A DNA stretch of 54,412 nt from a virus. Position numbers and translations under genes: made by a program. The stretch covers positions 1 to 54,412 of IMG/VR virus record IMGVR_UViG_3300027710_000034, one strand, 5' to 3'. The notes under the pieces are model-generated. The model was not told the origin of the DNA. It did no database searches and saw only the letters and a list, made by a program, of their open reading frames with translations. Below, in pieces: positions 14,460 to 53,287 of the stretch. The first letter of the stretch is position 1. Every line of letters starts with the position of its first letter.

Positions 14460-14465
14460 GTTTTT

Positions 14466-14540: not shown

Positions 14541-14558
14541 TTTATAAACGGGTGACGT

Positions 14559-14999: not shown

Positions 15000-15002
15000 T
15001 TT

Positions 15003-15077
15003 GCAGGATTAGCTCAGCGGTAGAGCATCTCGTTTACACCGAGGCGGTCGGCGGTTCAATCCCGTCATCCTGTACCA
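15003..15077 (+). tRNA. tRNA-Val(UAC)
   Basis: Acceptor GCAGGAT/ATCCTGT, anticodon loop TTTACAC, T-loop TTCAATC, ACCA end. Confidence 0.94.
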
Positions 15078-15078
15078 G

Positions 15079-15154
15079 TGCCCCATGGTGCAATTGGCAG
15101 CACGTCTGATTTTGATTCAGAAGGTTCCACGTTCGAGTCGTGGTGGGGCATCCA
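15079..15154 (+). tRNA. tRNA-Gln(UUG)
   Basis: Acceptor TGCCCCA/TGGGGCA, anticodon stem TCTGA/TCAGA with loop TTTTGAT, TCCA end. Confidence 0.94.
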
Positions 15155-15159
15155 GATTA

Positions 15160-15249
<90 letters not shown>

Positions 15250-15253
15250 TAAT

Positions 15254-15289
15254 AAAAAGTGCCAAGGAAAAAAACTTGGCACTTTTTTT
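15254..15289 (+). terminator. Strong intrinsic terminator
   Basis: AAAGTGCCAAG (15256-15266) pairs perfectly with CTTGGCACTTT (15275-15285), followed by a run of T to 15289. It ends the first tRNA transcript. Confidence 0.92.
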
Positions 15290-15299
15290 ATTTTAGGGC

Positions 15300-15328
15300 T
15301 TGACAATTTCTACATTTCGAGGTATAGT
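15300..15328 (+). promoter_or_regulatory. Sigma70-like promoter, cassette type A
   Basis: TTGACA at 15300-15305, 17-bp spacer, TATAGT at 15323-15328, and the same leader as at 10634 with one change. It drives three tandem small genes. Confidence 0.87.
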
Positions 15329-15355
15329 GATATTATAGTTTGAAAGGAAATCGTT

Positions 15356-15541
15356 ATGGAAGTTTTTGTTTTGAAGGGTGGCATCGGGGTTCAGTTGGGC
15401 GTCTATGCATCTGAAGATGAAGCACGGGATGCCCACGGTGTATACATTCGTGACGGCGGTCGGTTCCTCGATTCCTACTATATCGTGCGGCAAGTAGTTG
15501 GTGCAACTGCAGATGCCGATGCGGATCGGATCTGGATCTAA
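15356..15541 (+). CDS. Tandem small-protein paralogue 1
   Basis: A 61-residue acidic protein opening with MEVFVLKGG and holding the family core GVYASEDEARDA. It shares this pattern with the next two genes, so the three arose by tandem duplication. A beta-beta-alpha fold is plausible. Function unknown. AAAGGA ribosome-binding site from the promoter cassette. Confidence 0.75.
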   Translation: MEVFVLKGGIGVQLGVYASEDEARDAHGVYIRDGGRFLDSYYIVRQVVGATADADADRIWI

Positions 15542-15557
15542 AGAAAGGAAATTGGTT

Positions 15558-15761
15558 ATGGAAGTTTTTGTTTTGATGGGTGCGATGGATCACGATGCGC
15601 ATTACGTTCTTGGTGTTTATGCTTCTGAACAAGAAGCAGTAGATGCTTTGGGTGTTTACCTTCGTGACCTCGATGAATCGTGGCATGATGAGTATTATGT
15701 CGATCGCCGTGTGCTCGGTGCACATGCGGAATATGATTCCGATCCTCATCGGTACCTCTAA
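15558..15761 (+). CDS. Tandem small-protein paralogue 2
   Basis: A 67-residue protein beginning MEVFVLMGA with core LGVYASEQEAVDALGVYL; the first 7 residues are identical to the preceding gene and the core is very similar. Start ATG 15558 follows AAAGGAA; the longer upstream frame overlaps paralogue 1 and is rejected. Confidence 0.75.
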   Translation: MEVFVLMGAMDHDAHYVLGVYASEQEAVDALGVYLRDLDESWHDEYYVDRRVLGAHAEYDSDPHRYL

Positions 15762-15782
15762 AGTTTTTATGGAAGGTTGATT

Positions 15783-15959
15783 ATGCAAGTTTATGTCGTG
15801 AACAATGAATCTCCTGGTGGAGATCACTCGATTATGGTTGGTATCTACTCGACCGAAGAAAAGGCGAGAGAGATGATCAAATTCTTGGAACGTGAAACTC
15901 CTGAATGGTATCCTACCTACTCAGTTGAAGACGTTGATCCAGAAGATCCGATGTATTAA
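15783..15959 (+). CDS. Tandem small-protein paralogue 3
   Basis: A 58-residue protein, MQVYVVNNE at the start and VGIYSTEEKAREMI in the core: the most diverged of the triplet. Weak ribosome-binding site GGAAGG about 8 bases before the ATG. It ends just before a tRNA gene. Confidence 0.72.
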   Translation: MQVYVVNNESPGGDHSIMVGIYSTEEKAREMIKFLERETPEWYPTYSVEDVDPEDPMY

Positions 15960-15964
15960 AGTTT

Positions 15965-16040
15965 AGACGAGTAGCTCAATGGTTAGAGCCGACCGCTCAT
16001 AACGGTTTGGTTGGGGGTTCGAGTCCCTCCTCGTCTACCA
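15965..16040 (+). tRNA. tRNA with anticodon CAU (elongator Met or Ile2)
   Basis: Acceptor AGACGAG/CTCGTCT, anticodon loop CTCATAA, T-loop TTCGAGT, ACCA end. The D-loop AATGGTTA and variable loop resemble tRNA-Ile2, whose CAU is modified to read AUA, but elongator Met cannot be excluded. Confidence 0.9.
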
Positions 16041-16045
16041 GTTAG

Positions 16046-16094
16046 GGTTGCTACTTAATAGGCACGCGAGGAATCACGGTTAGTTCCTCAACCA
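16046..16094 (+). ncRNA. Minihelix-like tRNA remnant
   Basis: GGTT and GAGGAA pair with the continuous 3' strand TTCCTCAACC, as in an acceptor stacked on a T-stem, with a small hairpin in place of D and anticodon arms and CCA at the end. Too short for a tRNA; probably a deletion remnant between two tRNA genes. Confidence 0.3.
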
Positions 16095-16100
16095 GTTTAC

Positions 16101-16176
16101 GGATCATTAGCTCAGTTGGTAGAGCAGCGGACTCTTAATCCGCTTGTCGTAGGTTCGATCCCTACATGATCCACCA
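16101..16176 (+). tRNA. tRNA-Lys(CUU)
   Basis: Acceptor GGATCAT/ATGATCC, anticodon stem GCGGA/TCCGC with loop CTCTTAA, T-loop TTCGATC, ACCA. Confidence 0.95.
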
Positions 16177-16181
16177 GTTTC

Positions 16182-16257
16182 GGACGCTTAGCTCAGTAGG
16201 TAGAGCAACGGGCTTTTAACCTGTTGGTCCTGGGTTCGAGTCCCAGAGCGTCCACCA
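16182..16257 (+). tRNA. tRNA-Lys(UUU)
   Basis: Acceptor GGACGCT/AGCGTCC, loop CTTTTAA, T-loop TTCGAGT, ACCA. Confidence 0.95.
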
Positions 16258-16274
16258 TTTTAAAGGAGTTTGTT

Positions 16275-16451
16275 ATGAGTAAAATGATACTTGCATTTCT
16301 GTTCATTTTTACCTGTGTGTTCTTCGGTATTCAAATTGTTCGCGATTTGAATAAATCTGAAAAATTAAGCTTGACTAAATTGCTTGCTTATAGTATAGTG
16401 TGTACTGTGATTACGATGGTCGTGATTACTTCAATTGTTTTGATTTTCTAA
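16275..16451 (+). CDS. Small two-helix membrane protein
   Basis: A 58-residue protein with hydrophobic segments at about 4-22 and 38-57 joined by a charged loop. Start ATG 16275 follows AAAGGAG. A promoter lies inside the second half of the gene and serves the SPFH gene downstream. Function unknown. Confidence 0.7.
   Translation: MSKMILAFLFIFTCVFFGIQIVRDLNKSEKLSLTKLLAYSIVCTVITMVVITSIVLIF
16371..16399 (+). promoter_or_regulatory. Sigma70-like promoter inside a small gene
   Basis: TTGACT at 16371-16376, 17-bp spacer, TATAGT at 16394-16399, about 65 bases before the SPFH lipoprotein start. Confidence 0.7.
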
Positions 16452-16465
16452 GGAATAAAGTTATT

Positions 16466-17263
16466 ATGAAAAGTGTTACTAAAGTCGTTCTTCTCGCTGG
16501 TCTGATGGCAACGACTGCTGCCTGTACTCGTATTGAAACAGGTGAAGTTGGTGTTCGGCGTTCGTTCGACAAGACCATTGAAACTACTGAGTTGATGCCA
16601 GGATCAATCAACCAGACAATGTTCGGTGATGTTATGACATTCCCAACCAAGGACGTGCAGGTTGATGTTTCTGACTTGACTCCACTTGCGTCGGACAACT
16701 CGACAGTTGCTGACTTTGACATGGCAGTAATCTATTCGATTAATCCTGGTTCGGTTGCCGAACTGTATATCGAAAAGAATCGTGGTTTCCATGCTGACAC
16801 TGAAGAAGGCGATACACTTTTGATGTATAATTACATTCGTCAGTTGGGTCGTAATGCTGCCTACAAGGTTGCTCGTCGTTACGAGTCATTGAAGATGGCA
16901 GACAATCGTGCTGAGATTGAGCAACTGGTTCGCCAAGAGATTGTCGCGCAACTTGCTTCTGAGAAACTCGATGGTGCTATCTCGATTTCACAGGTTCTTG
17001 TTCGTCAGGTAAAACCTGCTGCGAATATCGTAGCGTCTGCTAACCAACTTGTCCAGGCACAAAACGCTGAGAAGCAGAAGTTGGTAGAGGTTCGTACCGC
17101 AAAGTTGGAAGCAGAACGTATTGCTGCTCTTAATGCCAACGCTGGTGCTACTAAATACATGGAAGCAACTGCTCTCGTGACAATCGCGGAAGCAGTTAAG
17201 GAAGGTAAGGTTTCTACCATTATTGTTCCTTATGACTTCAAGGGTATCGTGAACGTCAAGTAA
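16466..17263 (+). CDS. SPFH/Band 7-domain lipoprotein
   Basis: A 265-residue protein with a lipoprotein signal (lipobox TAAC, cysteine about 20) followed by the prohibitin/stomatin-like opening IETGEVGVRRSFDKTIE, and a coiled-coil region rich in Ala, Glu and Lys near the C-terminus (about 195-235). SPFH proteins form membrane-associated cages or scaffolds. A lipid anchor in place of a transmembrane helix would put it on the periplasmic side of a host membrane. It is flanked by tRNA genes. The role in infection is unknown. Confidence 0.87.
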   Translation: MKSVTKVVLLAGLMATTAACTRIETGEVGVRRSFDKTIETTELMPGSINQTMFGDVMTFPTKDVQVDVSDLTPLASDNSTVADFDMAVIYSINPGSVAELYIEKNRGFHADTEEGDTLLMYNYIRQLGRNAAYKVARRYESLKMADNRAEIEQLVRQEIVAQLASEKLDGAISISQVLVRQVKPAANIVASANQLVQAQNAEKQKLVEVRTAKLEAERIAALNANAGATKYMEATALVTIAEAVKEGKVSTIIVPYDFKGIVNVK

Positions 17264-17271
17264 GTTTGAAT

Positions 17272-17358
17272 GGAAGGTGGGCAGGACGGTAATGCAACGC
17301 ACTGCTAATGCGTCTACCAGAAATGGTAGAGTGGGTTCGACTCCCACACCTTCCGCCA
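17272..17358 (+). tRNA. tRNA-Ser(GCU)
   Basis: Acceptor GGAAGGT/ACCTTCC, loop CTGCTAA, long variable arm CTACC/GGTAG, GCCA end. Confidence 0.95.
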
Positions 17359-17359
17359 T

Positions 17360-17437
17360 GGTGGATGTAGCTCAGTTGGTTAGAGTGTCGGCTTGTGATG
17401 CCGAATGTCGCGGGTTCAAGTCCCGTCATTCACCCCA
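17360..17437 (+). tRNA. tRNA-His(GUG)
   Basis: Anticodon stem TCGGC/GCCGA with GUG. An encoded extra G at position -1 faces C73, the His identity feature. CCA encoded. Confidence 0.95.
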
Positions 17438-17438
17438 T

Positions 17439-17514
17439 GGGGATGTAGTCCAAAGGCAGAGACAGAGGACTTAAAATCCTTCCAGTGTGGGTTCGAGTCC
17501 CACCATCCCTACCA
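17439..17514 (+). tRNA. tRNA-Leu(UAA), short variable loop
   Basis: Acceptor GGGGATG/CATCCCT, anticodon stem GAGGA/TCCTT with loop CTTAAAA, T-loop TTCGAGT. As with the Leu(UAG) gene, the variable loop is about 5 bases and not the expected long arm. Confidence 0.85.
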
Positions 17515-17518
17515 TTTC

Positions 17519-17594
17519 GCGTCTGTAGCTCAGTTGGTAGAGCACTCCCCTGATAAGGGAGAGGTCGCAGGATCGAGGCCTGCCAGACGCACCA
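17519..17594 (+). tRNA. tRNA-Ile(GAU)
   Basis: Anticodon stem TCCCC/GGGGA-type with loop CTGATAA. The T-loop reads ATCGAGG, so the nearly universal T54 is replaced by A. CCA encoded. Confidence 0.92.
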
Positions 17595-17596
17595 AT

Positions 17597-17668
17597 GCCA
17601 GCAGTGCAAGTGCACGACTGACTCTCATAAGGTTGGTTCGGTAGGAGCGTTACCTACTGCTGGTACCA
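17597..17668 (+). tRNA. Degenerate tRNA-like gene with CAU loop
   Basis: Good acceptor GCCAGCA/TGCTGGT with ACCA, but a shortened D-arm, a weak anticodon stem around CTCATAA and a non-canonical T-loop (AGCGTTA between GTAGG/CCTAC). Probably a decaying CAU tRNA or a tRNA mimic. Confidence 0.5.
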
Positions 17669-17669
17669 T

Positions 17670-17747
17670 GTCACGATGGCAGAGTGGTCCAATGCACAGG
17701 TCTGCAAAACCTGAAAACCGTGGGTTCGAATCCCACTCGTGACTCCA
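17670..17747 (+). tRNA. tRNA-Cys(GCA)
   Basis: Acceptor GTCACGA/TCGTGAC, anticodon stem CAGGT/ACCTG with GCA, U73 as expected for Cys, TCCA end. Confidence 0.94.
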
Positions 17748-17764
17748 TTCTAAAGGAATATATA

Positions 17765-18001
17765 ATGACAGATGTTATTGCAATTGATAAGTATCGTTTG
17801 TTGGTTGAGCGTATCGAAACCATTGAACAAGAAATTGATGCCAAGAAACTAGATCGTAAGAATGTTTACGCTGATGTTAAGAGCGAAGGTTACGATGTTA
17901 AGGCAACTCGCCAGATTATTCGCCTCCGCAAAAAGGAAGCGCATGTTCGGCAAGAAGAAGATATGATTCTTGAAACATATCGCACTGCTATTGGTCTATG
18001 A
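17765..18001 (+). CDS. GapR/DUF2312-like nucleoid-associated protein
   Basis: A 78-residue basic helical protein. RLLVERIETIEQEI, VYADVKSEGYDVKATRQIIRL and the final helix match GapR, the alphaproteobacterial protein that clamps overtwisted DNA ahead of polymerases and assists topoisomerases. The length equals the cellular protein without extra domains. It starts at ATG 17765 behind AAAGGAA, inside the tRNA cluster. A phage copy could organise or relax phage DNA, or compete with the host protein. The family also hints at the host class. Confidence 0.85.
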   Translation: MTDVIAIDKYRLLVERIETIEQEIDAKKLDRKNVYADVKSEGYDVKATRQIIRLRKKEAHVRQEEDMILETYRTAIGL

Positions 18002-18006
18002 TTTAT

Positions 18007-18081
18007 GGCCCCGTCGTCTACTGGCTAGGACACGTCACTTTCACTGACGAGAAGGCGGATCGAAACCGCTCGGGGCTACCA
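18007..18081 (+). tRNA. tRNA-Glu(UUC)
   Basis: Acceptor GGCCCCG/CGGGGCT, loop CTTTCAC, T-loop ATCGAAA with A at position 54 as in tRNA-Ile(GAU), ACCA end. Last tRNA of the island. Confidence 0.93.
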
Positions 18082-39834: not shown

Positions 39835-40071
39835 ATGCCAAGAAAAAAAATTGCTGCGGCCAACACAGAGTCTCCAGAGGTCGCACAGGAAACTGTGGTG
39901 GAAACTGCACCTACATACTACGAATACATAACACCTGATGGTATCTCTGTGCTGCTCGACCGCTATGAATGGTCAAGGGGTCTTGGTCTATCAGATAAGA
40001 ACGTAAAGAAAGCGCAAGCAGCACGGCATCGTGAGGTTGCCAAGGGGTTTGCCAGAACTGAGGAAGCATAA
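39835..40071 (+). CDS. Hypothetical small basic protein
   Basis: A 78-residue protein with a Lys-rich start, an Ala/Glu/Thr linker and a basic helical C-terminus (KNVKKAQAARHREVAKG). AAAAGGA ribosome-binding site. Stop overlaps the methyltransferase ATG. Confidence 0.68.
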   Translation: MPRKKIAAANTESPEVAQETVVETAPTYYEYITPDGISVLLDRYEWSRGLGLSDKNVKKAQAARHREVAKGFARTEEA

Positions 40072-40679
40072 TGGAATACCAACAATATATCGACTCTAAT
40101 GGAAACATCATAAGAATGCTAAGTCATGATGCCACATACACTGCATCAACTACAGATTATCTAATGGATAATGGTTATGGTCACGTAACTGGACAGATAT
40201 CTGATCATGACACATTGGCATTTAGAGCGATTATTGAAAAAATGCCACAGCATTTTCGTATGGTAGAACTGGGTTCAATGTATGGTGCATCAGCAGTTAC
40301 ATTTGCACTACTTGCTTATGAGATGCGTAAGACCTGCGAAATTCTTTGTATTGATTGCTTTGGATTGCCAAACCAACTGGAAACATTCAAACAAAACACT
40401 ATGGACTTCAGTAATATCAGTTATCGAGCAGAATACTTTAATGATGCTTTTGAGTACGATGGTGGGCCGATTGACTTATACTTTGACGATGCGAGTCATA
40501 TCGAAAGACCTACATATAAGCAGTTGGTGTATTGGAGTCAGTATGCCAAGAACATTGCGGTTCATGACTACACTGCAGAGTGGGAAGGTAACATTGCCGC
40601 AGTGGATAAATTTGCTTCCGAGCGAGCAGCGACTGTGCAGCGATTTGATGAATCGAGTGTCGTGTTACTGGAGTTGTAA
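40071..40679 (+). CDS. Class I SAM-dependent methyltransferase
   Basis: A 202-residue enzyme with motif I MVELGSMYGASAV (about 64-76), an acidic end of strand 2 (ILCIDCFG) and PIDLYFDDASHIE as the strand-4 region, in the methyltransf_24 style. It is a distant relative of the 28678 enzyme in layout. Followed by a sulfotransferase-like gene, so both may decorate the same sugar or peptide. Confidence 0.8.
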   Translation: MEYQQYIDSNGNIIRMLSHDATYTASTTDYLMDNGYGHVTGQISDHDTLAFRAIIEKMPQHFRMVELGSMYGASAVTFALLAYEMRKTCEILCIDCFGLPNQLETFKQNTMDFSNISYRAEYFNDAFEYDGGPIDLYFDDASHIERPTYKQLVYWSQYAKNIAVHDYTAEWEGNIAAVDKFASERAATVQRFDESSVVLLEL

Positions 40680-40723
40680 ATGGAGTTGGGCCCTGCCCTT
40701 CGGTATCTTAGGAAAGACAAGTA

Positions 40724-41242
40724 ATGTTTATCCACAATAATGGTAATTGTGCTGTTATGGCAAACCTACGTTGTGGATCAACGAACATGTTTAATTACTT
40801 TGAAACGGAAGTAAATAATTTTGGACTGCGGGGTTGGTTGAACCACCGCAATCCCATTGTAGTTCTTCGTAACCCGATAGACCGTGTTGTTTCTTCGATG
40901 GCATTCTTCTGGAGTGATAAAGGAACACCAGAGTTTCGACTCGCTGAGTTTGCTCGACATTCAGCCCCATATCTACACAATCTAACAATAAGTAACTTTC
41001 GCATCATAGATTTCAACATTCTCGAGCAGTATATTCCAAGGAAGGATACTGTGCGACTGCAGTCTGTTCGTACTGACACACGCTGCCATCCTTTCACAGC
41101 GGCAGAAGATGCTTATGTGCCGAATCCTCTATACACACTGGAAGACTTGCAAAAATGCGTCGAGGACTATAAAGATTTTATCGCGAATAAAGAACGAGTT
41201 ACGGTTGATGAGTGGAAAGAACTTACAATCGAAAGGGCTTGA
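40724..41242 (+). CDS. Sulfotransferase-like protein
   Basis: A 172-residue protein with the two PAPS-binding signatures: a P-loop-like LRCGSTNMF (15-23) for the 5'-phosphosulfate and VLRNPIDRVVSSM (47-59) for the 3'-phosphate. Short compared with host sulfotransferases but with both motifs. It would transfer sulfate to a sugar or tyrosine acceptor. A promoter overlaps its end. Confidence 0.78.
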   Translation: MFIHNNGNCAVMANLRCGSTNMFNYFETEVNNFGLRGWLNHRNPIVVLRNPIDRVVSSMAFFWSDKGTPEFRLAEFARHSAPYLHNLTISNFRIIDFNILEQYIPRKDTVRLQSVRTDTRCHPFTAAEDAYVPNPLYTLEDLQKCVEDYKDFIANKERVTVDEWKELTIERA

Positions 41243-43434: not shown

Positions 43435-44772
43435 ATGGTTAAAGTTATTGTCGCCGATTCTAAACTAGATTGCGAGCATCTGCTCGGTCAATATCTAGAT
43501 GAGAGTCATTTCGACATTGTGGTCAATGAAGATACAGACTGTTATAAAGAGTCTGATTCTCTGCTCGATACAGAGTTGACTGAAAACAGGATTGCATTTA
43601 AGTTTCGTAAGAACTTCTTCTCGCCAGAAGAACAGGAGCAGGCATACATTGGTCTGCGCGAAGCAGCAACCGAATCACAGAATCGTGGTCTGGCAGCAGG
43701 TCCACGTGGTGAGTTGCTAGGCGTAGAAGGTCGCGGTGGTCGCGACTGGGTAACTGATTACGAACTCGAGATTCTTGATTTTCTGATGACAGATAAGGGT
43801 CGACTGATCGACGAACTTAGTATCGAGAGCATTCGTGCTAAGCATGCAGGTGCACCACGATCTAATGCAGATGAAACTCGAGGCGCAGTCTGGTTGCGCA
43901 GTCAAGTATGTAAAGTATATCCAGAATATTTTGGTTGGTTCGACGTATGGGTCGACAGTCTAGAAACAAAGAGTAAAGAAGATGTTGCAAAGGAAGCGCG
44001 AAATATCGCAGAGAACTGGATTTCAACAACCAACTATGCTAAGTCGGTTTTCTCAGGCGTTGCTGGATGGTATGACCGATATCCTAGAATTCCTTTCGGT
44101 CGTGCTACTACTTACACTCGTGACAATTTTGATAAGTTTAAGTTGGCCTTTCCTTTTCTACAATCTCTTAATCGCGGGTTTAAAGAACTCCTCCCTCGGC
44201 GTTGGTCTAACCAAAAGAGTGCCGTGGATACAATCGATAGTCGATTCGTGGTCCCAGAAACAGTATTCACCACGATCACCGTCAACAAGTCTTTCCGAAC
44301 GGCAGCGCATCGTGACGCAGGCGATTTTGCTGATGGTCTCAGTAATCTTCTGGTCGTTGGTAGTGGTGACTATACTGGCGGTTATCTAATCTTTCCTGAG
44401 TATCGCATCGCAGTGAATGTTCGTCCAGGTGACTTGTTGCTAGTCAGCAATCATGAGATCATTCACGGTAACACCGAGATTAAACTGACAAGTCCAGATG
44501 CTGAGCGTATTTCGTTGGTTTGCTATTTGCGCGAGAACATGCTAGAACTTGGTTCATATGAATATGAAACAACTCGCGAGCAATATGTCATTGACCGCAG
44601 AACTAATAGAGAACACCACCACTATCGTCCACTCTGGAATGGCGTATCTCCAGGAATGTGGGACGAACAAGAATGGTATGACTACCTCGAAACTAAACTT
44701 GGTCGAGATACAGTTGCCAAGTATCATCCTAAAGCATACCAAACAACATCAACACTTGGAGATCTATTTTAA
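43435..44772 (+). CDS. TET/JBP-family 2OG-Fe(II) dioxygenase (5-methylcytosine hydroxylase)
   Basis: A 445-residue protein. The C-terminal double-stranded beta-helix has the TET/JBP signature: HRD (H292, D294) in FRTAAHRDAGDFADG, GDYTGGYLIFPEY, DLLLVSNHEIIHGN (H344) and R358 in ERISLVCYLRE; upstream FGRATTYTRDNFDKF is also typical. Phage TET enzymes hydroxylate 5-methylcytosine in phage DNA as the first step of hypermodification. The next gene is a glycosyltransferase, as in known phage TET loci. No cytosine methyltransferase is in the window; it may be elsewhere. The C-terminus ends TSTLGDLF, resembling a sliding-clamp-binding peptide. Confidence 0.88.
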   Translation: MVKVIVADSKLDCEHLLGQYLDESHFDIVVNEDTDCYKESDSLLDTELTENRIAFKFRKNFFSPEEQEQAYIGLREAATESQNRGLAAGPRGELLGVEGRGGRDWVTDYELEILDFLMTDKGRLIDELSIESIRAKHAGAPRSNADETRGAVWLRSQVCKVYPEYFGWFDVWVDSLETKSKEDVAKEARNIAENWISTTNYAKSVFSGVAGWYDRYPRIPFGRATTYTRDNFDKFKLAFPFLQSLNRGFKELLPRRWSNQKSAVDTIDSRFVVPETVFTTITVNKSFRTAAHRDAGDFADGLSNLLVVGSGDYTGGYLIFPEYRIAVNVRPGDLLLVSNHEIIHGNTEIKLTSPDAERISLVCYLRENMLELGSYEYETTREQYVIDRRTNREHHHYRPLWNGVSPGMWDEQEWYDYLETKLGRDTVAKYHPKAYQTTSTLGDLF

Positions 44773-45581
44773 TGGAATATAGTATTGCTATTCCGTCTTA
44801 TCATCGTGAACATACTATTCAGAATAAGACGTTGAAAGTTCTTGAATCATATAACATCGATCCTGCTAAAATCACGATCTTTGTTAATGATCAGGATGAA
44901 GGCGAATATGATCGATATGCTAATGCGTTGAAGGAAAACCCTTACGCAAAGGATATCCAGATTGTTCGTGGTGTTCCAACTATCGGAAAACAACGTAACT
45001 TTATTGAACGTTGGTATCCGGAAGGCACACGACTGATGATGTTCGATGATGATATTGAAGAAGTTCAAGTCAAAGTCAGTGAACAGAAGTTGGGTCGTGT
45101 CGAAGATCTCGAGCGAGAAATCTTTATTCGTGGATTTGAGGAATGCGAGAAGGTAGGTGCTAAGACCTTTGGTATCTACGCAGCATCGAATGCATTCTTT
45201 ATGAAAGATCGAGTATACAATGACATTTGCTATATCATTGCCTCGATGTTTGGTGTGATTGTTGAACATGATGATTTTCTCGCTCGAGTAACCAACCATG
45301 GTGAAGACTACGAATATTCTATTCGCCAGTATATTAAGAATGGTGTTCTTGCTCGCCTTGACAACTACACAGTCAAGTCTCGGTACTACAAGGAAGAAGG
45401 TGGACTTCAAGATGTTCGCACTAAGGAATATGTGTATGACAGTGTGAAGATTATTGCGGACGAGTTCCCCGACCTTTGCACGATGTATATCCGCGAAACT
45501 ACTGGACATGCTGAATTGAAACTGCATGACCGCAACAAGAAGTATCGTAAAGTAGAATCTTCACTAGAGGATCTATTTTAG
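44772..45581 (+). CDS. TET-associated glycosyltransferase
   Basis: A 269-residue GT-A enzyme. MEYSIAIPSYHRE is the nucleotide-binding start, IGKQRNFIERW the following helix, and MMFDDDIEEV the DxD metal site (near residue 90). NHGEDYEYS matches the acidic acceptor-side motif. Its ATG overlaps the stop of the TET gene, and phage TET genes are known to be paired with glycosyltransferases that modify 5-hydroxymethylcytosine. It ends ESSLEDLF, the same kind of tail as its partner. Confidence 0.87.
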   Translation: MEYSIAIPSYHREHTIQNKTLKVLESYNIDPAKITIFVNDQDEGEYDRYANALKENPYAKDIQIVRGVPTIGKQRNFIERWYPEGTRLMMFDDDIEEVQVKVSEQKLGRVEDLEREIFIRGFEECEKVGAKTFGIYAASNAFFMKDRVYNDICYIIASMFGVIVEHDDFLARVTNHGEDYEYSIRQYIKNGVLARLDNYTVKSRYYKEEGGLQDVRTKEYVYDSVKIIADEFPDLCTMYIRETTGHAELKLHDRNKKYRKVESSLEDLF

Positions 45582-45583
45582 TA

Positions 45584-45612
45584 TTGACTTATCCCTGTAA
45601 ATGTAGTATAGT
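45584..45612 (+). promoter_or_regulatory. Sigma70-like promoter giving a leaderless transcript
   Basis: TTGACT at 45584-45589, 17-bp spacer, TATAGT at 45607-45612; the predicted start point coincides with the ATG at 45619. Last sigma70-type promoter of the window. Confidence 0.75.
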
Positions 45613-45618
45613 CAGTTA

Positions 45619-46737
45619 ATGATACTAGAAAAAACAGATGCAGAATACATTGGTCGTCGATTTATTGATTATATGTCAAACTATAATCGTATCGACGACC
45701 ACATGCGTATGAAAAAACTTGAGCGATTAAAAACTCTTCCTTCCACACTTCCAGGATATGAACCAGAGAATATGTTGTTCTCTGATTTTAGTATGCACCC
45801 AGAAGATATGGAATTTGAGATCTTTGAACCAACTGCCAGCGAGTTCTCGACTATGGTTGAGATTACTTCTTCTTTCTGCAACGAGAACTCATTCGGCAAA
45901 GAAATTAAATTTATTGTTCGCGAGAAGAACAGTGGTAAGTATGTTGGTTTCTGTCGAGTCGCAAGCCCATTCATCAATTCTAGACCGAGGAATGAATGGT
46001 TCGGGCAAGTCCCCGATCTAAAGTCATTCAACAAGCATGCAGTAATGGGATTCATTATTGTTCCAACACAACCGTTCGGTTTTAATTATCTCGGCGGTAA
46101 ACTGCTTGCACTTCTTTGCGCATCTCATGAATTTCGTGAAATGTTCAATAAGAAGTATGATATGGAAACTTGTCTCTTTGAAACGACATCATTATACGGA
46201 AATATCAAGCAAGCATCGCAGTATGATGGTCTTAAACCATTTTTACGGTACACTGGCGACACTGTTAGCAATTTTCTCCTCTCATTCTCCGATGATTTTT
46301 GGTTTGAGACCTTAAATTGGTTTGCAAGCAAAAATAATGGCGAACCTTTGTTCGGCAGAGAGGGAATTGCGTCGTATAAGATGAAAATGCAAAATAAAAT
46401 GATGTCAATTATCAAAAATTCGCTAAAATATCATAATTCTAGCGAACTTTTGGCGTTTACAGACGCAATTCAGGCGAACAAAGACGTTACGACGCAAAAA
46501 AGATTTTATATTTCAACTTATGGGTACGAAAATTCGAAAAATTACATCCTCGGAACCGATAAAACGCTGATCAAGAGCAAAGAAAACTTCGACAAGCACT
46601 ATTCAGATAATATTATTCGCTGGTGGAAGAAAAAAGCGTCTTCAAGATACGAAAATCTGAAGTCAGACGGAAGATTGCGTAACAATCTTGAAATTTGGAA
46701 CAATGACACCATTGATACAATTGATATCATCCGTTGA
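45619..46737 (+). CDS. GNAT/DUF4338-like protein next to the TET pathway
   Basis: A 372-residue protein. The segment IKFIVREKNSGKYVGFCRV, HAVMGFIIVPTQPFGFNYLG and CLFETTSLYGNIKQASQYDG resembles the GNAT-like core shared by DUF4338 proteins and Mom-type DNA-modifying acyltransferases. The C-terminal third is Lys-rich and helical. Beside TET and glycosyltransferase genes it may add a further group to the modified base; this is inference from context. Translated probably without a leader. The 3' third is richer in A/T and AAA codons than the 5' part. Confidence 0.6.
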   Translation: MILEKTDAEYIGRRFIDYMSNYNRIDDHMRMKKLERLKTLPSTLPGYEPENMLFSDFSMHPEDMEFEIFEPTASEFSTMVEITSSFCNENSFGKEIKFIVREKNSGKYVGFCRVASPFINSRPRNEWFGQVPDLKSFNKHAVMGFIIVPTQPFGFNYLGGKLLALLCASHEFREMFNKKYDMETCLFETTSLYGNIKQASQYDGLKPFLRYTGDTVSNFLLSFSDDFWFETLNWFASKNNGEPLFGREGIASYKMKMQNKMMSIIKNSLKYHNSSELLAFTDAIQANKDVTTQKRFYISTYGYENSKNYILGTDKTLIKSKENFDKHYSDNIIRWWKKKASSRYENLKSDGRLRNNLEIWNNDTIDTIDIIR

Positions 46738-46745: not shown

Positions 46746-46770
46746 CTACATAACATATGTGAGTATAACA

Positions 46771-48036
46771 ATGGCAACAATAGAGCAACTCAATAATATT
46801 AAACAAATCATCGAGGGTGTAGATGGGTTCTCTATAAGAACCTCTACACCCTCAAAGATTGTAGTCGATTGCGACAAAGACAGACAAGAAGCAAAAACTC
46901 TTCTTGAGTCTACATTCAAAGACAACGACATTAAATTTAAAGAACAGATTGTTTCTGGTTCTTCTTTTCCTGCAACAGTGATTGATGGGCAAAGTCTCAA
47001 TATCATTTACAAGAACAAACGTGGTGGAGGGATGCAAGAAACAACACTAAATTCTTCGATCACCGAACTGTTTCCTTGTATTGCATTCTTGACAAAGATT
47101 GAAAATCAAGATTTAAGCACGATTGATAAGTTTTACGCTGCAATATTAAAAAATAACAGCACAGATCTAAGTTGTTACATTAGAAATGACAATATTGCTG
47201 GAAAAGAATTCGTAGATAAAGCAGAAACCTCTTCGAAGTTCAAACAGAAAACAACTGGCGCACTTGCTGTCCTAAAATTCATCCGAGAACAAGATAAAGG
47301 TAAACCAATAACTGATGTTTATTGGGGATATAGAAACAAACCAACTGGTGTTCTTCCAAACCACAAAGGTGACATATTTTTAAAGTTCAATGATAACTCT
47401 ATGGTTGGTGTCTCGATAAAATCAGGCGGTGCCAAAACACAAGAACCTAAATTGAACACATATGTAAATCCTATTATGGAGTGGTTTGGTAAAAAAGCAG
47501 AATTCGATAAAATGAAAGTAGAAGCATTTAATCTGTTCTATACTGATATTCCAGGAATGCCGAAAGATCCCAAGAAAGTTGGATCTAGAGAGTTCTACGA
47601 TTCACTGGGTAAATACGAACTTTCCAACAAACAAGATTATGATAAGAAGTATGATGCTGTGTTGGAGTATATGCGTTCTAAACTGGTAGAACTATTATCA
47701 GCGAATGATGCTAAAACAAAGAAATGGTTGACGGAAGTCGTTGCTGGTGAACAAGAGGGTGTTCCTCTGGTCGTGGTAAAGGCAATCGAAACAACAGGCG
47801 ACTTTGAGTTGCAGACAGATGAAGATGTTATTAAATCATGCGTAGTCAGATCTAAAAAGACGGGTGGATTGAAGATAGAGAAATCCACTACATCAAAACA
47901 GAATTTTGACATATCATTGACTTGCAATCTCAGAGTTACTAAACTTAATTTCAGTATAAGATCGAACAAGGTGGGTGTTCAACATAAGTTGGGGCAATTC
48001 CTAAATTTGGCAGTTAAATTTAACGGTGCCAAGTAA
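46771..48036 (+). CDS. Hypothetical protein, possible PD-(D/E)XK nuclease fold
   Basis: A 421-residue protein starting at ATG 46771 (a GTG at 46759 is in frame). The N-terminal 80 residues look like a small alpha-beta module; the middle has KGDIFLKFNDNSMVGVSIKSG, whose Asp and spaced Ser-x-Lys fit the core of PD-(D/E)XK nucleases. A C-terminal helical and beta part follows. Similar large hypotheticals occur in T4-like marine phages. Nuclease activity is a hypothesis. Confidence 0.75.
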   Translation: MATIEQLNNIKQIIEGVDGFSIRTSTPSKIVVDCDKDRQEAKTLLESTFKDNDIKFKEQIVSGSSFPATVIDGQSLNIIYKNKRGGGMQETTLNSSITELFPCIAFLTKIENQDLSTIDKFYAAILKNNSTDLSCYIRNDNIAGKEFVDKAETSSKFKQKTTGALAVLKFIREQDKGKPITDVYWGYRNKPTGVLPNHKGDIFLKFNDNSMVGVSIKSGGAKTQEPKLNTYVNPIMEWFGKKAEFDKMKVEAFNLFYTDIPGMPKDPKKVGSREFYDSLGKYELSNKQDYDKKYDAVLEYMRSKLVELLSANDAKTKKWLTEVVAGEQEGVPLVVVKAIETTGDFELQTDEDVIKSCVVRSKKTGGLKIEKSTTSKQNFDISLTCNLRVTKLNFSIRSNKVGVQHKLGQFLNLAVKFNGAK

Positions 48037-48056: not shown

Positions 48057-48344
48057 ATGACATACGATGCAATATTTAAATTAATTGGAGACGTGGGTTT
48101 CCCAATCGCAGGCGCTTTACTTGCGGGTGTCTTTGTGTATTTTGTAATCAACTACATTCTGGAGAGCGTTGTTAAGGCGCTCAAGGGAATGCAGGGTATT
48201 ATTATGGGACTCGACAATCGAGTCAAGACAATGAACCATGATATTATTCGCGTTGATGCAGTTGTTAGTTCCGCTTTAGGTCTTAAACCAGATCTAGATA
48301 GAATAGCACGAGCAGACGGGAAAAACGATGCTCGGAAAGATTAA
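48057..48344 (+). CDS. Single-pass membrane protein, paralogue 1 (holin-like shape)
   Basis: A 95-residue protein with one membrane helix (about 14-34, FPIAGALLAGVFVYFVINYI) and a C-terminal coiled-coil stretch (MGLDNRVKTMNHDIIRVDAV). The next gene has the same plan, so these are paralogues. The layout recalls BhlA/UviB-type holin-like proteins, with no direct proof. Probably read from the late-type motif just upstream. Confidence 0.7.
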   Translation: MTYDAIFKLIGDVGFPIAGALLAGVFVYFVINYILESVVKALKGMQGIIMGLDNRVKTMNHDIIRVDAVVSSALGLKPDLDRIARADGKNDARKD

Positions 48345-48610
48345 TGGACCCATTAATTATAACAGAACTAGTTAAACAATATGGATTCCCGATCGTCGCC
48401 TCTGTCGGCATGGGTTACTTTGTTTGGTTCATTTATAAGTTCGTAACTGATAAATTAATGCCGTTGATTAGTGAAACCAATGTGATTTTGATTGCGTTGA
48501 TTGACCGTGTTCGCATGCTTGACAACGATTTAATTAGATTAAACCAGAAGGTGAGCGTAGTTTTACAAATAAAAGAGGATCATAGCAATGACAATCAACC
48601 TAAAGATTGA
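48344..48610 (+). CDS. Single-pass membrane protein, paralogue 2 (holin-like shape)
   Basis: An 88-residue protein with helix YGFPIVASVGMGYFVWFIYK (14-33) and coiled coil LIDRVRMLDNDLIRLNQKVS, matching the preceding protein segment by segment. The ATG overlaps the previous stop. It lies directly before the curli genes. Confidence 0.7.
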   Translation: MDPLIITELVKQYGFPIVASVGMGYFVWFIYKFVTDKLMPLISETNVILIALIDRVRMLDNDLIRLNQKVSVVLQIKEDHSNDNQPKD

Positions 48611-48725
48611 ATTACTAAAGGTCTTCACAATTGATTTTAATTTTTCTTCTGACAACAAAAACAAAAAGGAAGAGAAAAATGCTAAAACGAGCGATGATGC
48701 TCCTGACGCTACTAAGTCTAAGTAG
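48588..48725 (+). CDS. Small charged protein overlapping csgF
   Basis: A 45-residue protein, hydrophobic/amphipathic start (INLKIELLKVFTID) and a Lys/Asp-rich tail. It has a good ribosome-binding site (AAAGAGGA) but overlaps the csgF start by 47 bp in another frame. It might be real and couple translation to csgF. Confidence 0.45.
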   Translation: MTINLKIELLKVFTIDFNFSSDNKNKKEEKNAKTSDDAPDATKSK

Positions 48726-49128
48726 TCCAGCATACGCAGATCCTATAGTCCAACAGTTTAAATCACCTTCCTTTACAGGTTACGGGTGGTCTTCACACGT
48801 GCAGTCAATCGACGCACAAGAGCGTTCGCGAGAGCAGGCAATTAAAGATGCTGAGGCAGCAAAGGCAGCATTAGCAAGAGCAGAGGCATCTAATACGCCA
48901 CTCGCCAAATTCATGGCGCTGTTTACCTCTCAGGTATATGCCCAACTTGCTACACAACTTTCGAACAATTTGTTCGCAGAAGGTGGGAATGCCAGTGCTG
49001 GAACATTTAACCTCGACGGTAACTCTGTGAGTTATGTAAAGACTGGGACAGAAGTTAGACTAACAGTTGTCGATAAGAATGGCAATACTACAGTTGTTGT
49101 CGTTCCTATTGCTACATTCGCGTTTTAA
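48679..49128 (+). CDS. csgF: Curli assembly protein CsgF
   Basis: A 149-residue secreted protein. Signal peptide to about residue 21 (SSPAYA), then PIVQQFKSPSFTGYGW, matching the conserved CsgF N-terminus (QFxxPxFGG) that plugs into the CsgG pore, and a C-terminal beta domain (VRLTVVDKNGNTTVVVVP). Between them is an Ala-rich helix. In E. coli CsgF sits at the cell surface and couples CsgG to curlin nucleation. csgG follows 9 bp later. Start ATG 48679 after AAGGAAGAG. Confidence 0.87.
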   Translation: MLKRAMMLLTLLSLSSPAYADPIVQQFKSPSFTGYGWSSHVQSIDAQERSREQAIKDAEAAKAALARAEASNTPLAKFMALFTSQVYAQLATQLSNNLFAEGGNASAGTFNLDGNSVSYVKTGTEVRLTVVDKNGNTTVVVVPIATFAF

Positions 49129-49137
49129 GGCAGAGTT

Positions 49138-49962
49138 ATGAAAAAAATAATTCTCCTTCCAATTCTACTAGCAACTTCTGGTTGTGTTGGTGCGCTTCAT
49201 CCTACTGCCAACCAATCATATCTGTTCAGAGATGATGCAGAAGTCAAACGTTTTGCGAATCCAAAATTGTTCAAGAATCTTCCTGAATTAGATGGCCAAC
49301 CAATTCCTATCGCGCTGTATTCATTTACTGATAGAACTGGTCAACGTAAACCATCTTCAACTCTTGCAAGTTTCTCGACTGCAGTAACTCAAGGTGCAGA
49401 TGCTTATCTGATCAAAACACTGCAAGATACAGGAGACGGTAAGTGGTTTACACCAGTCGAGCGTGTTGGTATTGATTCGCTGATCAAAGAACGTCAACTT
49501 GTTCGTCAAATGCGCGAACAACTTTCTGGCGAGAGTGCTGAACCTCTTCCACCACTCAAGGTTGCTGGTATCATCTTAGAAGGTGGTATTATTGACTATA
49601 ACTCGAATATTAAAACAGGTGGTACTGGTGCTAGATTCCTTGGCATCGGTCCATATCAACAATACACCCAAGATCAGGTAACAATTAGTCTTCGTCTGGT
49701 TTCTGTCCAAACTGGCGAAGTTCTAAATTCAGTTACAGTGGAAAAGACAGTTCTCTCGACTTCCGAGGGGGTGACTGCGTTCACATTCTTCGACATGGCG
49801 ACTAGAGCATTTGAATTTGATGGACAACAAACAAGTAATGAAGCAGGTAGTTATGCGATCCGTTCTGCCATAGAAACGGCCGTTGTTGAGTTGATCAAGG
49901 ATGGTGAAAGAAAGAATCTATGGAGATTCAAACAAAAGGAAACGACAAATGAAACTAAGTAA
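49138..49962 (+). CDS. csgG: Curli secretion pore lipoprotein CsgG
   Basis: A 274-residue outer-membrane lipoprotein (lipobox TSGC, cysteine 16). ALYSFTDRTGQRK, FSTAVTQGADAYLIKTL, WFTPVERVGIDSLIKERQ, YNSNIKTGGTGARFLGIG and the C-terminal SAIETAVVELI align by eye with E. coli CsgG along its length. Nine copies form a secretion channel for curlin subunits. In the constriction loop the Phe of FSTAV is kept but the E. coli Tyr51 and Asn55 positions appear to be Ser and the loop one residue longer. It overlaps the curlin-like gene by 14 bp. Confidence 0.93.
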   Translation: MKKIILLPILLATSGCVGALHPTANQSYLFRDDAEVKRFANPKLFKNLPELDGQPIPIALYSFTDRTGQRKPSSTLASFSTAVTQGADAYLIKTLQDTGDGKWFTPVERVGIDSLIKERQLVRQMREQLSGESAEPLPPLKVAGIILEGGIIDYNSNIKTGGTGARFLGIGPYQQYTQDQVTISLRLVSVQTGEVLNSVTVEKTVLSTSEGVTAFTFFDMATRAFEFDGQQTSNEAGSYAIRSAIETAVVELIKDGERKNLWRFKQKETTNETK

Positions 49963-50722
49963 GTTTTTATTAGTTGGTGCTGCTCTTTGTTATGGAACAT
50001 CTGTGATTGCACAAACTGTACTGCCAACAGCACCAACTCCTCCAGCAATTGTAACAACTTCGCCAAATGAAACAGAGGCAAATACTGTTGCAACTACAAA
50101 TAAGGTATATATCGATCAAGAAGGGGGCAACGTAGATGTTAACATCGTTCAAACTGGCACTGCTAACGTTATCGGTTCTTCTATTGATCCTATTTACCTA
50201 CGTGGTGATAACCAAAGCGTTATCGCAATACAAACAGGCAATGGAAACCAACTTTATATGGGTGTCGTATCCGACACAGGAGCACAAGGAATCGCCGATG
50301 TAACAATTCGTCAAATTGGCGATTTAAACACTGCTACTATTCGTTGTGGGACAGAAGTAACTGACTCCTCATGTAATCAACTCGACATGAATGCCAAGTT
50401 CACTGGTAATAACAACTCGTTTGTTTTCCGTGGTTCGGGTGCTAATATCCGTAACTCTATGGATTTCAACGGTAACAATAACACAATCAACATGGATGCA
50501 CTATCACCAAATGCGTCACAAACTATTCTGGTGACAGGAAACTACAATGACTTTGATGTTACACAAACTGGTACTGGTGGAACATTCGGTCACTCGCTTT
50601 ATGTTAATCTAACAGGTTCATTAAACACTATAACAACACAACAGTATGGTGTTTCTGAGACTGTGATCAATATTAATAGTGTGGGATCAAATGGCACGTT
50701 TAATATCAAAACTGGTCACTAA
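49949..50722 (+). CDS. Curlin-repeat secreted protein 1
   Basis: A 257-residue protein with signal peptide (cleavage near SVIAQ) then repeated strand-turn units carrying the curlin ladder Qx4N: VNIVQTGTANVIG, IAIQTGNGNQLYM, VTIRQIGDLNTAT, further GNNNS/GNNNT and TQTGTGG units. Curlin subunits (CsgA/CsgB) use this pattern to form amyloid. It is longer than CsgA (about 150) and more irregular. It follows csgG directly and would be its cargo. Confidence 0.8.
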   Translation: MKLSKFLLVGAALCYGTSVIAQTVLPTAPTPPAIVTTSPNETEANTVATTNKVYIDQEGGNVDVNIVQTGTANVIGSSIDPIYLRGDNQSVIAIQTGNGNQLYMGVVSDTGAQGIADVTIRQIGDLNTATIRCGTEVTDSSCNQLDMNAKFTGNNNSFVFRGSGANIRNSMDFNGNNNTINMDALSPNASQTILVTGNYNDFDVTQTGTGGTFGHSLYVNLTGSLNTITTQQYGVSETVININSVGSNGTFNIKTGH

Positions 50723-51836
50723 TCTTCTACTGATATTTCTGTTATCGACTCCTGCCTTTGCGGATATTGGGTCGATAACAGATTTCAGAGGAGGTGGTGC
50801 CATTAAGCGTGGCGCCAAGACTACAGTTGCATCTAAGGGTGCAAGAGTTCAAAAGATGGACACTGTTTCAACAAACAGTCAAGGCAGATTTAGGATAACA
50901 TTTAATGACTCGACTACCGTCAATATTACAGAAAACTCTCGCCTTCTTGTGGATGACTTTGTGTATGATGGGGGAGGGAACACGAAGGGCAAACTTGGAC
51001 TTCGGGTCGCGCTTGGCACCGTCAGATACGCATCAGGTAAAGTCGCAAAAACAAATCCACGAGGCGTAAACATTCGCACACCGACTGCCACTATCGCAGT
51101 CCGTGGCACAGACTTCGTTATGTCGGTTGATGAAGCAGGTCGTTCTACGGTCGTGCTGGTTCCCGAATGTTATAACGAACTAGACATTACAAAACAAACT
51201 GCGGAATGTCCGAATGGAATGATAGATGTCATTACAGCATCTGGCGTAGTTACATTAACACAACCATTCCAAGCAACAGTTGTGGAAAACAACTTTGCGC
51301 CACCTGCTCCGCCAGTAGTTATCAATCCATTAGTTAAGACATTAGATAACAATGTTCAAATTGTTCCGTTGGAAACAGATGATGGTCAGAGTTTGCTCCA
51401 ACTTGCCAGAGATAGTCTAAAGAAATTTACGAATCCCGCAAAAGCAGCATCGGATGATAACAAAGACCCAGATGCAGGCACAAACGATAACGTGGAACAA
51501 GTTACAGTTGCTATGCTTCGCCAAGCAACACCGCAAGAACTTCTGGATGTTTATGCCGAGTTCAACGAAGGAACCAAACCAGCAGAAACAATCTATACTA
51601 ATGTATCGCCAACATTCAAGAAGAACGTTCAGGTTGGTTGGGTGTATACTCGATTATCGGACGACAAACAACAAGCAATTACTGTTTGGTTAGAAAAAGG
51701 AACAGAAGCGCAAGTCGTATCTGTTCAAAATGGATTAGTAGATGTTTACAACTTTATGGACGACAAGTGGACAACATCGGGAACTGGTAGACCACAGGGC
51801 AATATCACAGTGATGCAAGAAACAGGTGCAAGATGA
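50691..51836 (+). CDS. Secreted FecR-domain protein
   Basis: A 381-residue protein with signal peptide (STPAFA) and a FecR domain at about residues 27-165: VQKMDTVSTNSQGRFRITF, a TTVNITENSRL strand, and VNIRTPTATIAVRGTDFVM, the typical RTPxAxxxVRGT motif. The C-terminal half is acidic with Ala/Asp linkers and a beta-rich end. Unlike iron-sensing FecR it has no obvious membrane anchor beyond the signal. It overlaps the curlin-like gene by 32 bp, so it belongs to the same operon. Role perhaps binding or regulating the surface fibre. Confidence 0.85.
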   Translation: MARLISKLVTNLLLIFLLSTPAFADIGSITDFRGGGAIKRGAKTTVASKGARVQKMDTVSTNSQGRFRITFNDSTTVNITENSRLLVDDFVYDGGGNTKGKLGLRVALGTVRYASGKVAKTNPRGVNIRTPTATIAVRGTDFVMSVDEAGRSTVVLVPECYNELDITKQTAECPNGMIDVITASGVVTLTQPFQATVVENNFAPPAPPVVINPLVKTLDNNVQIVPLETDDGQSLLQLARDSLKKFTNPAKAASDDNKDPDAGTNDNVEQVTVAMLRQATPQELLDVYAEFNEGTKPAETIYTNVSPTFKKNVQVGWVYTRLSDDKQQAITVWLEKGTEAQVVSVQNGLVDVYNFMDDKWTTSGTGRPQGNITVMQETGAR

Positions 51837-53287
51837 AAAAACTAATCGCTCTATTCCTACTATTCTTTGCAATTCCAGCATTCGCACAAGTTACAAACTA
51901 TGGATTTGAGAATGGCGACTATGCTGGGTGGACAGCAAGTAATGGTAGCACAACACTAAGAACATCTTGGAGCGATTCAGGTAATGGCGTCCAAGTAACT
52001 ACTGGTGTGCAAAATTATTGTCCAGGTGGTGGTAAGTGTTGGACAATTACACCATACGGTTCATACATGGTTTCTCTGCAAGCAGGCGGTAGTTCTCCAC
52101 AATTTAATGCTGCAATGACAACACTTGGTCTGCAAAGTTCTACCATCACAACAATTAGAAATACCATTTACTCCAATGGTAACATGTATCCAACTAATGC
52201 TACTTCGATTAGTAGAACAGTCTTTCTTCAGGCAGGTGTTACATACACCTATGCTTGGCAATATCTTTCAACTGATTATGTTCCATACAATGATGGATCG
52301 ATGATCACTGTTACTGGTGGACCTGGAACTGCGACTATTAATGGTCAGACACAAGACTATGCTCTACTCGGATTTACGAACCAAGGTACTGGTAATTATT
52401 CGGTAGGATCTTATGGTGCTACTGGTTGGCAGGTCGCAGTGTTTACTGTTCCTACTGATGGTAACTATCTTCTAGGATTTGCTTCGTTCAATCTAGGTGA
52501 TACTGCATTGTCACCAATTCTATTCATCGACCAGATGCAAGGAACAACTTCACTGAATGGCACAACATTTACACCTGTTGCACCAAACGCTGGTTCTACT
52601 GCGCCACCGCCTCCTGCACCTGAACCACCTGCTCCAACATATCCTCTCGCTTCTATCAGCGCAAACCAATCATTGAAGATTAATCAAACAAATGCGATTA
52701 CACAAAACTCTATCTATATCAATGTAACGGGCTCTAGCAATTCTGTTTACATCGAACAGTTCTCTAAGCAGAACCAAATCCGTGGTGTGAATGGCGCACA
52801 AGCAATGACGATTAATGGCAACAGCAACAGCGTAACTATTAATCAGGGAACAGCGACAACACCAATTGGTAAGAACTTAGCAGAAGTTTCCGTTACTGGT
52901 AATAACAACATAGTCTCATTGACGCAACAACAAGGTAGCAAATACGCCGAGATTATCACTAATGGTCTCGGTAATCAAATCTCAGCGCAACAAAAAGATG
53001 CTGGAGGAAAATCGTTGTTTATCAATGCTTTAGGAAACTCTAATAATATCAGTACCTTACAACAGGGAACTGCTAACCATTTTCTAGATATCAGCGCACC
53101 ATTTGGTGGAGTTACTGCATCCGTCACTCAATTAGGTTCTTCGATGAAGCAATTTCAACTTTTACTAAATAGTCCTGGAATTGGTGTAACTGTCACGCAA
53201 AATAACTTGACCGCTGCCGACTCTGCGAAAATGGAAATAACATGCACGACTGGACCATGTAATGGATACTCTTATACAAAAAACTAA
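51833..53287 (+). CDS. Large secreted adhesin with C-terminal curlin repeats
   Basis: A 484-residue protein. Signal peptide (IPAFAQ), an N-terminal beta-sandwich-like domain beginning NYGFENGDYAGWT (as in carbohydrate-binding or PEP-CTERM-type surface proteins; about 20-250), a Pro-rich hinge (APPPPAPEPPAP), then curlin-like units from about 280 to 460: INQTNAITQNSIYI, VYIEQFSKQNQIRG, VTINQGTATTP, VSLTQQQGSKY, STLQQGTANHFL. It would join a receptor-binding head to an amyloid anchor that could co-polymerise with protein 1. ATG overlaps the FecR stop. Confidence 0.83.
   Translation: MKKLIALFLLFFAIPAFAQVTNYGFENGDYAGWTASNGSTTLRTSWSDSGNGVQVTTGVQNYCPGGGKCWTITPYGSYMVSLQAGGSSPQFNAAMTTLGLQSSTITTIRNTIYSNGNMYPTNATSISRTVFLQAGVTYTYAWQYLSTDYVPYNDGSMITVTGGPGTATINGQTQDYALLGFTNQGTGNYSVGSYGATGWQVAVFTVPTDGNYLLGFASFNLGDTALSPILFIDQMQGTTSLNGTTFTPVAPNAGSTAPPPPAPEPPAPTYPLASISANQSLKINQTNAITQNSIYINVTGSSNSVYIEQFSKQNQIRGVNGAQAMTINGNSNSVTINQGTATTPIGKNLAEVSVTGNNNIVSLTQQQGSKYAEIITNGLGNQISAQQKDAGGKSLFINALGNSNNISTLQQGTANHFLDISAPFGGVTASVTQLGSSMKQFQLLLNSPGIGVTVTQNNLTAADSAKMEITCTTGPCNGYSYTKN

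Follow-up and report, generated by a model that had tools for sequence, protein, structure and literature searches.

Which base does a phage TET dioxygenase modify when a glycosyltransferase gene lies directly behind it, and how far does the pathway built on the two genes extend? The question is raised by a viral sequence of 54,412 nucleotides (IMG/VR record IMGVR_UViG_3300027710_000034; the whole stretch is called the window here). In it, a TET/JBP dioxygenase, a TET-associated glycosyltransferase (TAGT) and a DUF4338/DruA-like protein with a GNAT-like fold are encoded one after another (Table 1). An earlier reading of the sequence, referred to below as the original prediction, had proposed that the three proteins carry out a three-step hypermodification of cytosine. 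Our analysis favours, with somewhat more confidence than doubt, a different assignment, in which TET would make 5-hydroxymethyluracil (5hmU) from thymine in DNA and TAGT would cap it, as a phage analogue of base J. Ribonucleotide reductase genes, 25 tRNA genes and a curli block are encoded in the window, a 54 kb fragment that we read as part of a T4-like phage with relatives among the Kyanoviridae of fresh and marine waters. Earlier work (PMC7029224) had pointed out that one freshwater group of pelagimyophages carries a protein of the 2OGFeDO superfamily that would modify nucleic acids.

TET and TAGT as One Unit

The three open reading frames (ORFs), including the one-base overlap between the TET stop codon and the TAGT start, were confirmed by ORF, Pfam and PHROG analyses, the PHROG matches covering the full length of each protein (E=4e-157 for TET, 6e-43 for TAGT and 5e-136 for the DruA-like protein). 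The TET/JBP signature is complete as originally described: the iron ligands H292-x-D294 and H344 and the 2-oxoglutarate (2OG)-binding R358 are present and invariant in an alignment of 15 phage TETs, and the closest structural matches in a Foldseek search were CcTet, NgTet1, TET2 and CMD1. By its domain, HxD...H iron site and 2OG arginine, the protein belongs to the TET/JBP family, with the corresponding activity predicted. The PHROG name "queuine tRNA-ribosyltransferase" for TET reflects a weak match over the TET core and was taken as a mislabel; a TET-like gene in Indlovu carries the same label. The second protein is matched across the entire PF20691 profile, and its D92-D93-D94 motif is invariant among 17 aligned proteins; this domain and catalytic acidic motif place it in the TAGT family.

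Relatives were found on at least 195 viral contigs for TET, 139 for TAGT and 24 for the DruA-like protein. A TET was found in 75 of 77 TAGT loci, nearly always directly adjacent, and the remaining two have TAGT at a contig edge. The pairing of the dioxygenase and the glycosyltransferase as one unit is thereby borne out.

Exchangeable Cassettes behind TET

TAGT is one of several alternative followers of TET. The census took in 160 TET loci from related sequences; they contain 93 different complete TETs, of which 48 are accompanied by TAGT, 29 by an amino acid:DNA transferase (ADDT, PF18724), five by GT-B and one, in Caulobacter phage Cr30, by both a TAGT-like protein and ADDT. P-loop kinases (PF18751) are accompanied by ADDT in 27 of 28 cases. 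A genome-wide search detected ADDT in 15 TET records, most of which have a P-loop kinase next to it; TAGT and ADDT overlapped only in Cr30, where the TAGT match lies under the family cut-off. Cr30 alone (L083:15027-17161) has ADDT, matched at E=1e-52, next to a TAGT-like gene behind TET, and a gene for inositol-1-phosphate synthase comes after them.

The exchange extends into the window's own clade. Four contigs (L101, L102, L103 and L105), with TETs 74% and DruA-like genes 80% identical to those of the window, encode a class-II amidotransferase, an amidoligase-like protein, ADDT and a kinase between TET and the DruA-like gene, replacing TAGT. At 88% TET identity, in L002 and L097, the slot holds an epimerase, an unknown protein and UDP-galactopyranose mutase. 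In L097 this UDP-hexose epimerase cassette stands straight after TET (1656-4621), and a galactofuranose-type decoration of DNA is possible there. Another pair, L149 and L037, has TETs 88% identical and different cassettes. Supported branches of the TET tree require at least nine changes for TAGT or at least ten for ADDT. The slot behind TET is modular: its cassettes have been swapped repeatedly, and TAGT and ADDT are nearly exclusive. Since TETs up to 88% identical are followed by unlike cassettes, one and the same TET product should be acceptable to both kinds of tailoring, and the simplest reading is that this product does not vary, each cassette decorating it differently.

Three actinobacteriophages (L088, L200 and L201) have a TET-like gene with TAGT, a glucosaminyl deacetylase and a ParB-like gene, and lack a C5-methyltransferase.

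Thymine or Cytosine

In the original prediction the substrate was cytosine, and a genome search for the phage methyltransferase was called for. This search returned no C5-cytosine methyltransferase (PF00145) in the window, a fragment, or in any window-type TET record, so that on the phage side the original prediction falls short of its own criterion. Of the 62 records with a TET that were searched, 61 lack the family; the set includes contigs 134-162 kb long and the complete DLP6, Cr30 and C48C1 genomes. The sole positive is Melnitz, which served as the positive control of the search; there an HhaI-like methylase immediately precedes TET, which is divergent (24% identity). A methyltransferase dependent on S-adenosylmethionine (SAM) at 40071-40679 (Methyltransf_24, with a weak DNA-methyltransferase PHROG match) was considered as the missing methylase and rejected: it is not a member of the C5-methylase family, and no PCQ motif was seen. 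Together with a weak sulfotransferase-like ORF it occupies 40071-41242, upstream of the cassette; DLP6 also has a sulfotransferase near TET.

Lee et al. reportedly described the biochemistry of ADDT. In phages with hypermodified thymidine, 5-hydroxymethyldeoxyuridine (5hmdU) in DNA receives a phosphate from a 5hmdU DNA kinase, and transferases then modify it further (PMC6449724). We regard ADDT with a P-loop kinase as the signature of thymidine hypermodification. ADDT was not found in the window and is present in the sister cassettes of orthologous TETs, so the window is tied to this chemistry only by the shared TET. Of 41 TET records, 40 lack the thymidylate synthase (TS)/hydroxymethylase family (PF00303), and 10 of 16 records tested have ThyX, the enzyme for ordinary thymidylate; in the thymine reading, TET would supply the hydroxymethyl group. 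Because the C5-methyltransferase is absent from nearly all TET records and ADDT/kinase cassettes are interchangeable with TAGT, thymine is favoured over cytosine as the likelier base of TET.

Several observations weigh against thymine. Characterised phage TETs act on 5-methylcytosine (5mC) (Burke 2021, cited in PMC11404850), and TAGT of T2/T6 extends glucosylated hydroxymethylcytosine (PMC13216743), so that TAGT by itself is no argument for uracil. Cr30 has a TS-family gene as well as both cassette types, and the cassette counts come, as said, from related sequences, so that contingency p-values exaggerate their significance. ADDT could have been adapted to 5-hydroxymethylcytosine (5hmC), and a supply of 5mC by the host is possible. 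The residues that contact the base give mixed evidence as a test of specificity, because one resembles a cytosine enzyme and another does not. D297 of TET corresponds to D234 of NgTet1, which we take to touch the amino group of cytosine; R366 is invariant here, TET2 and NgTet1 have a histidine at its position, and Melnitz is also unlike.

The 5mC activity of characterised phage TETs, the T2/T6 TAGT and D297 speak for a rival explanation, in which TET would oxidise 5mC, made by a host methyltransferase or by an unrecognised one, to 5hmC, which TAGT would glycosylate, with no third step. We regard this as a possible but clearly less likely explanation. Melnitz shows that TET and a C5-methyltransferase occur together in related phages, and PF00145 is represented in a Caulobacter control genome. 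However, a widespread phage gene would then rely on scattered host methylation, the SAR11 hosts of related phages are almost without restriction-modification systems (PMC7029224), and the interchangeable ADDT and kinase cassette belongs to thymidine chemistry. Of the original cytosine proposal, the pairing of enzymes for DNA tailoring has stood, whereas cytosine as the base has become doubtful.

Putative Clamp-Binding Tails

TET and TAGT of the window end in similar short peptides. A strict motif, [ST]L-x-x-hydrophobic-F located no more than two residues from the C-terminus, was found in 85 of 104 TETs, 39 of 50 TAGTs and all five GT-B proteins, as well as in 27 of 29 DNA polymerases of window-related and other marine T4-like phages. 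The background was 14 of 1461 other ORFs (about 1%), among them nine polymerases and two apparently cut-off TAGTs, and the random rate is 0.04%. No kinase, amidotransferase, amidoligase, clamp or DruA-like protein carried it, and the tail was missing from the TETs of non-T4-like phages (0 of 6). With a relaxed motif the counts were 100 of 104 for TET, 47 of 50 for TAGT and 20 of 30 for ADDT, against 36 of 1461 in the background.

In T4, the C-termini of gp43, gp33 and gp55 are highly similar, bind the gp45 clamp and are exchangeable, and the peptide of RB69 polymerase was crystallised on the clamp (PMC2988020). The T4 alpha-glucosyltransferase (alpha-GT) also binds gp45 (PMC13216743). The tails of TET and TAGT fit this gp43/gp33/gp55-type motif as the tail of the phage polymerase does, and clamp binding is predicted for both. 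In many relatives the TET cassettes stand beside clamp and clamp-loader genes, and the clamp gene near the cassettes matches gp45 of RB69/T4. As the tails of TET and of the tailoring enzymes match the clamp tail of the polymerase, DNA modification is probably coupled to replication. Two points count against such coupling: in T4 the level of glucosylation by alpha-GT is not mainly set by clamp binding (PMC13216743), and neither a clamp nor a polymerase gene was found in the window, a 54 kb fragment. To our knowledge, within an incomplete coverage of the literature, a clamp tail on a phage TET or TAGT has not been described before. A 103-residue ORF at 36386 with a clamp-like C-terminus was considered as gp33; it is endonuclease VII-like instead, and its tail is possibly due to chance.

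It is generally known that TET-family enzymes can act on RNA, and TET and TAGT might accordingly serve a target other than the phage's own DNA, such as RNA or competitor DNA. The resemblance of their tails to that of the phage polymerase, and the proximity of many cassettes to clamp and clamp-loader genes, make this most improbable.

In the mechanism that we propose, TET would dock on the phage sliding clamp through its [ST]LxxhF tail and, in freshly synthesised DNA, hydroxylate a pyrimidine at its 5-methyl group; the pyrimidine is most likely thymine, which would become 5hmU. TAGT, with the same tail, would then add a sugar onto that hydroxymethyl group, yielding the phage counterpart of base J. 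Behind orthologous TETs its place is taken by a GT-B glycosyltransferase, by the epimerase with UDP-galactopyranose mutase, or by the amidotransferase, amidoligase-like protein, ADDT and kinase. The modification would probably protect the phage from host nucleases, in line with what is generally known of hypermodified phages. Whether T4-like phages use a clamp-tethered TET to hydroxylate thymine in nascent DNA, the 5hmU entering swappable cassettes for a sugar in the window and for galactofuranose-type sugars or amino-acid adducts in its close relatives, seems to us evenly balanced.

The DruA-Like Gene

The third step of the original prediction, in which the GNAT-like protein would acylate the glycosylated base, has gene order and fold in its favour. 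In the window, L095 and L096 the three genes lie next to each other and point the same way, TAGT and the DruA-like gene overlap by four bases in L096, and a GNAT fold is predicted for the third protein. The AlphaFold2 model (pLDDT 87) is GNAT-like, and the DUF4338/DruA domain has been described as GNAT (PMC10853773). Phage Mu Mom ranked first among structural matches (Z=10.3 over 178 residues), with other GNATs within 1 and an identity of only about 9%.

The gene neighbourhoods, however, contradict a pathway step. In the nearest relatives of the window (L095-L110) the DruA-like gene lies directly before or near the curli block, and it stays there when TAGT is missing (L097, L101-L103 and L105). 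Among the matches listed in a profile search of further marine T4-like phages, 78 of 79 DruA-like loci have no flanking TET, TAGT or curli gene, and the single exception is a near relative of the window. In Synechococcus and Pelagibacter phages the neighbours of the gene encode clamp loader, RegA and polymerase. Most TET loci lack a DruA-like gene in their vicinity, no family member was found in the TET phages DLP6, Cr30, C48C1 and S-CBWM1, and the protein lacks the clamp tail. A three-gene, three-step pathway is thus very unlikely. Because it remains by the curli genes when the follower of TET changes, we judge the DruA-like gene to be a separate GNAT-fold gene outside the TET pathway. It may encode an independent Mom-like enzyme, which we offer as a lead only.

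A role as a component of Druantia defence was likewise rejected. The protein is matched by both the Pfam and the PADLOC DruA models, but the DruE helicase of Druantia (MZB/PF09369) was not found in the window, four relatives or three cyanophage/pelagiphage records. An invariant Ile-Ile-Arg ends all 30 aligned DruA-like homologues (45619-46737 of the window and relatives from L095-L280), and this ending may act as a separate docking peptide.

Comparison with Known Systems

Burke et al. (2021, PNAS 118:e2026742118) reportedly described a phage-encoded TET with a C5-methyltransferase and a glycosyltransferase. The window shares with that system a TET/JBP oxygenase followed by a glycosyltransferase for DNA hypermodification, and differs in that no C5-methyltransferase was found, the cassettes are exchangeable with thymidine-type enzymes and putative clamp tails are present. 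Base J of kinetoplastids, made by the thymine hydroxylases JBP1/JBP2 and the glycosyltransferase JGT, likewise combines a TET/JBP oxygenase with a glycosyltransferase, and a methyltransferase is not needed if thymine is the substrate. In contrast to base J, the system of the window is phage-borne, probably directed to replicating DNA by clamp tails, and predicted from gene content. As of 2019, no phage genome had been reported to contain glucosylated 5hmdU (PMC6449724).

Phages ViI, M6, phiW-14 and SP10, with their 5hmdU kinase and amino acid or alkylamine transferase, resemble the sister cassettes in which ADDT and a P-loop kinase follow orthologous TETs. They make 5hmdU before replication via a thymidylate-synthase homologue, whereas here that family is nearly absent and TET would form 5hmU in DNA. 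The glucosylation of hydroxymethylcytosine in T4 (dCMP hydroxymethylase, alpha-GT and beta-GT, with TAGT in T2/T6) is similar in the type of phage, the post-replicative addition of sugar, the TAGT family and the binding of alpha-GT to gp45. It differs in that the hydroxymethyl group here would arise in DNA by TET and not on dCMP, and in that TAGT is the first glycosyltransferase and not the second as in T2/T6.

If the proposed reading holds, the TET/JBP family would gain a phage branch acting on thymine, like the JBP enzymes of trypanosomes, and hypermodified thymidine in phages could be explained with no change to the nucleotide pool. Clamp tethering would provide a concrete mechanism coupling DNA modification to replication, and the enzymes might serve to attach sugars or amino acids to thymine in DNA. 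The same TET family is encoded by the cultured phages DLP6, Cr30 and C48C1; DLP6 and S-CBWM1, another cultured relative, combine TET with TAGT, and Cr30 combines it with ADDT.

Neighbouring Genes and Other Observations

Table 1. Features of the TET locus and its right-hand neighbourhood, in window coordinates.
Feature	Position	Strand	Basis and remarks
TET/JBP dioxygenase, 445 aa	43435..44772	+	Pfam Tet_JBP E=1e-23; phrog_24024 E=4e-157; Foldseek; C-terminus ..TSSTLGDLF
Putative sliding-clamp-binding tail of TET (STLGDLF)	44749..44769	+	Strict C-terminal motif
TAGT (GT-A, DDD 92-94), 269 aa	44772..45581	+	Pfam TAGT PF20691 E=1e-12; TET adjacency; alignment; C-terminus ..ESSLEDLF
Putative sliding-clamp-binding tail of TAGT (SSLEDLF)	45558..45578	+	Strict C-terminal motif
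DUF4338/DruA-like GNAT-fold protein, 372 aa; judged outside TET pathway	45619..46737	+	Pfam DruA PF14236 E=7e-12; AlphaFold2; neighbourhoods
phrog_2496 protein	46759..48036	+	Between DruA-like gene and curli block; presence varies among near relatives
Curli-type block: CsgG 49138-49962; curlin-repeat-like ORFs 49901-50722, 51833-53287	48057..53287	+	Pfam CsgG E=2e-53; synteny; conserved right-hand neighbour of DruA-like gene

The phrog_2496 gene is present in the window and L095 and missing from the closely similar L096. The curli-type block stands together with TET in the window; pelagimyophages are known to carry such genes (PMC7029224, PMC9599517). The tRNA genes lie at 11554-18081 and cover nearly all amino acids.

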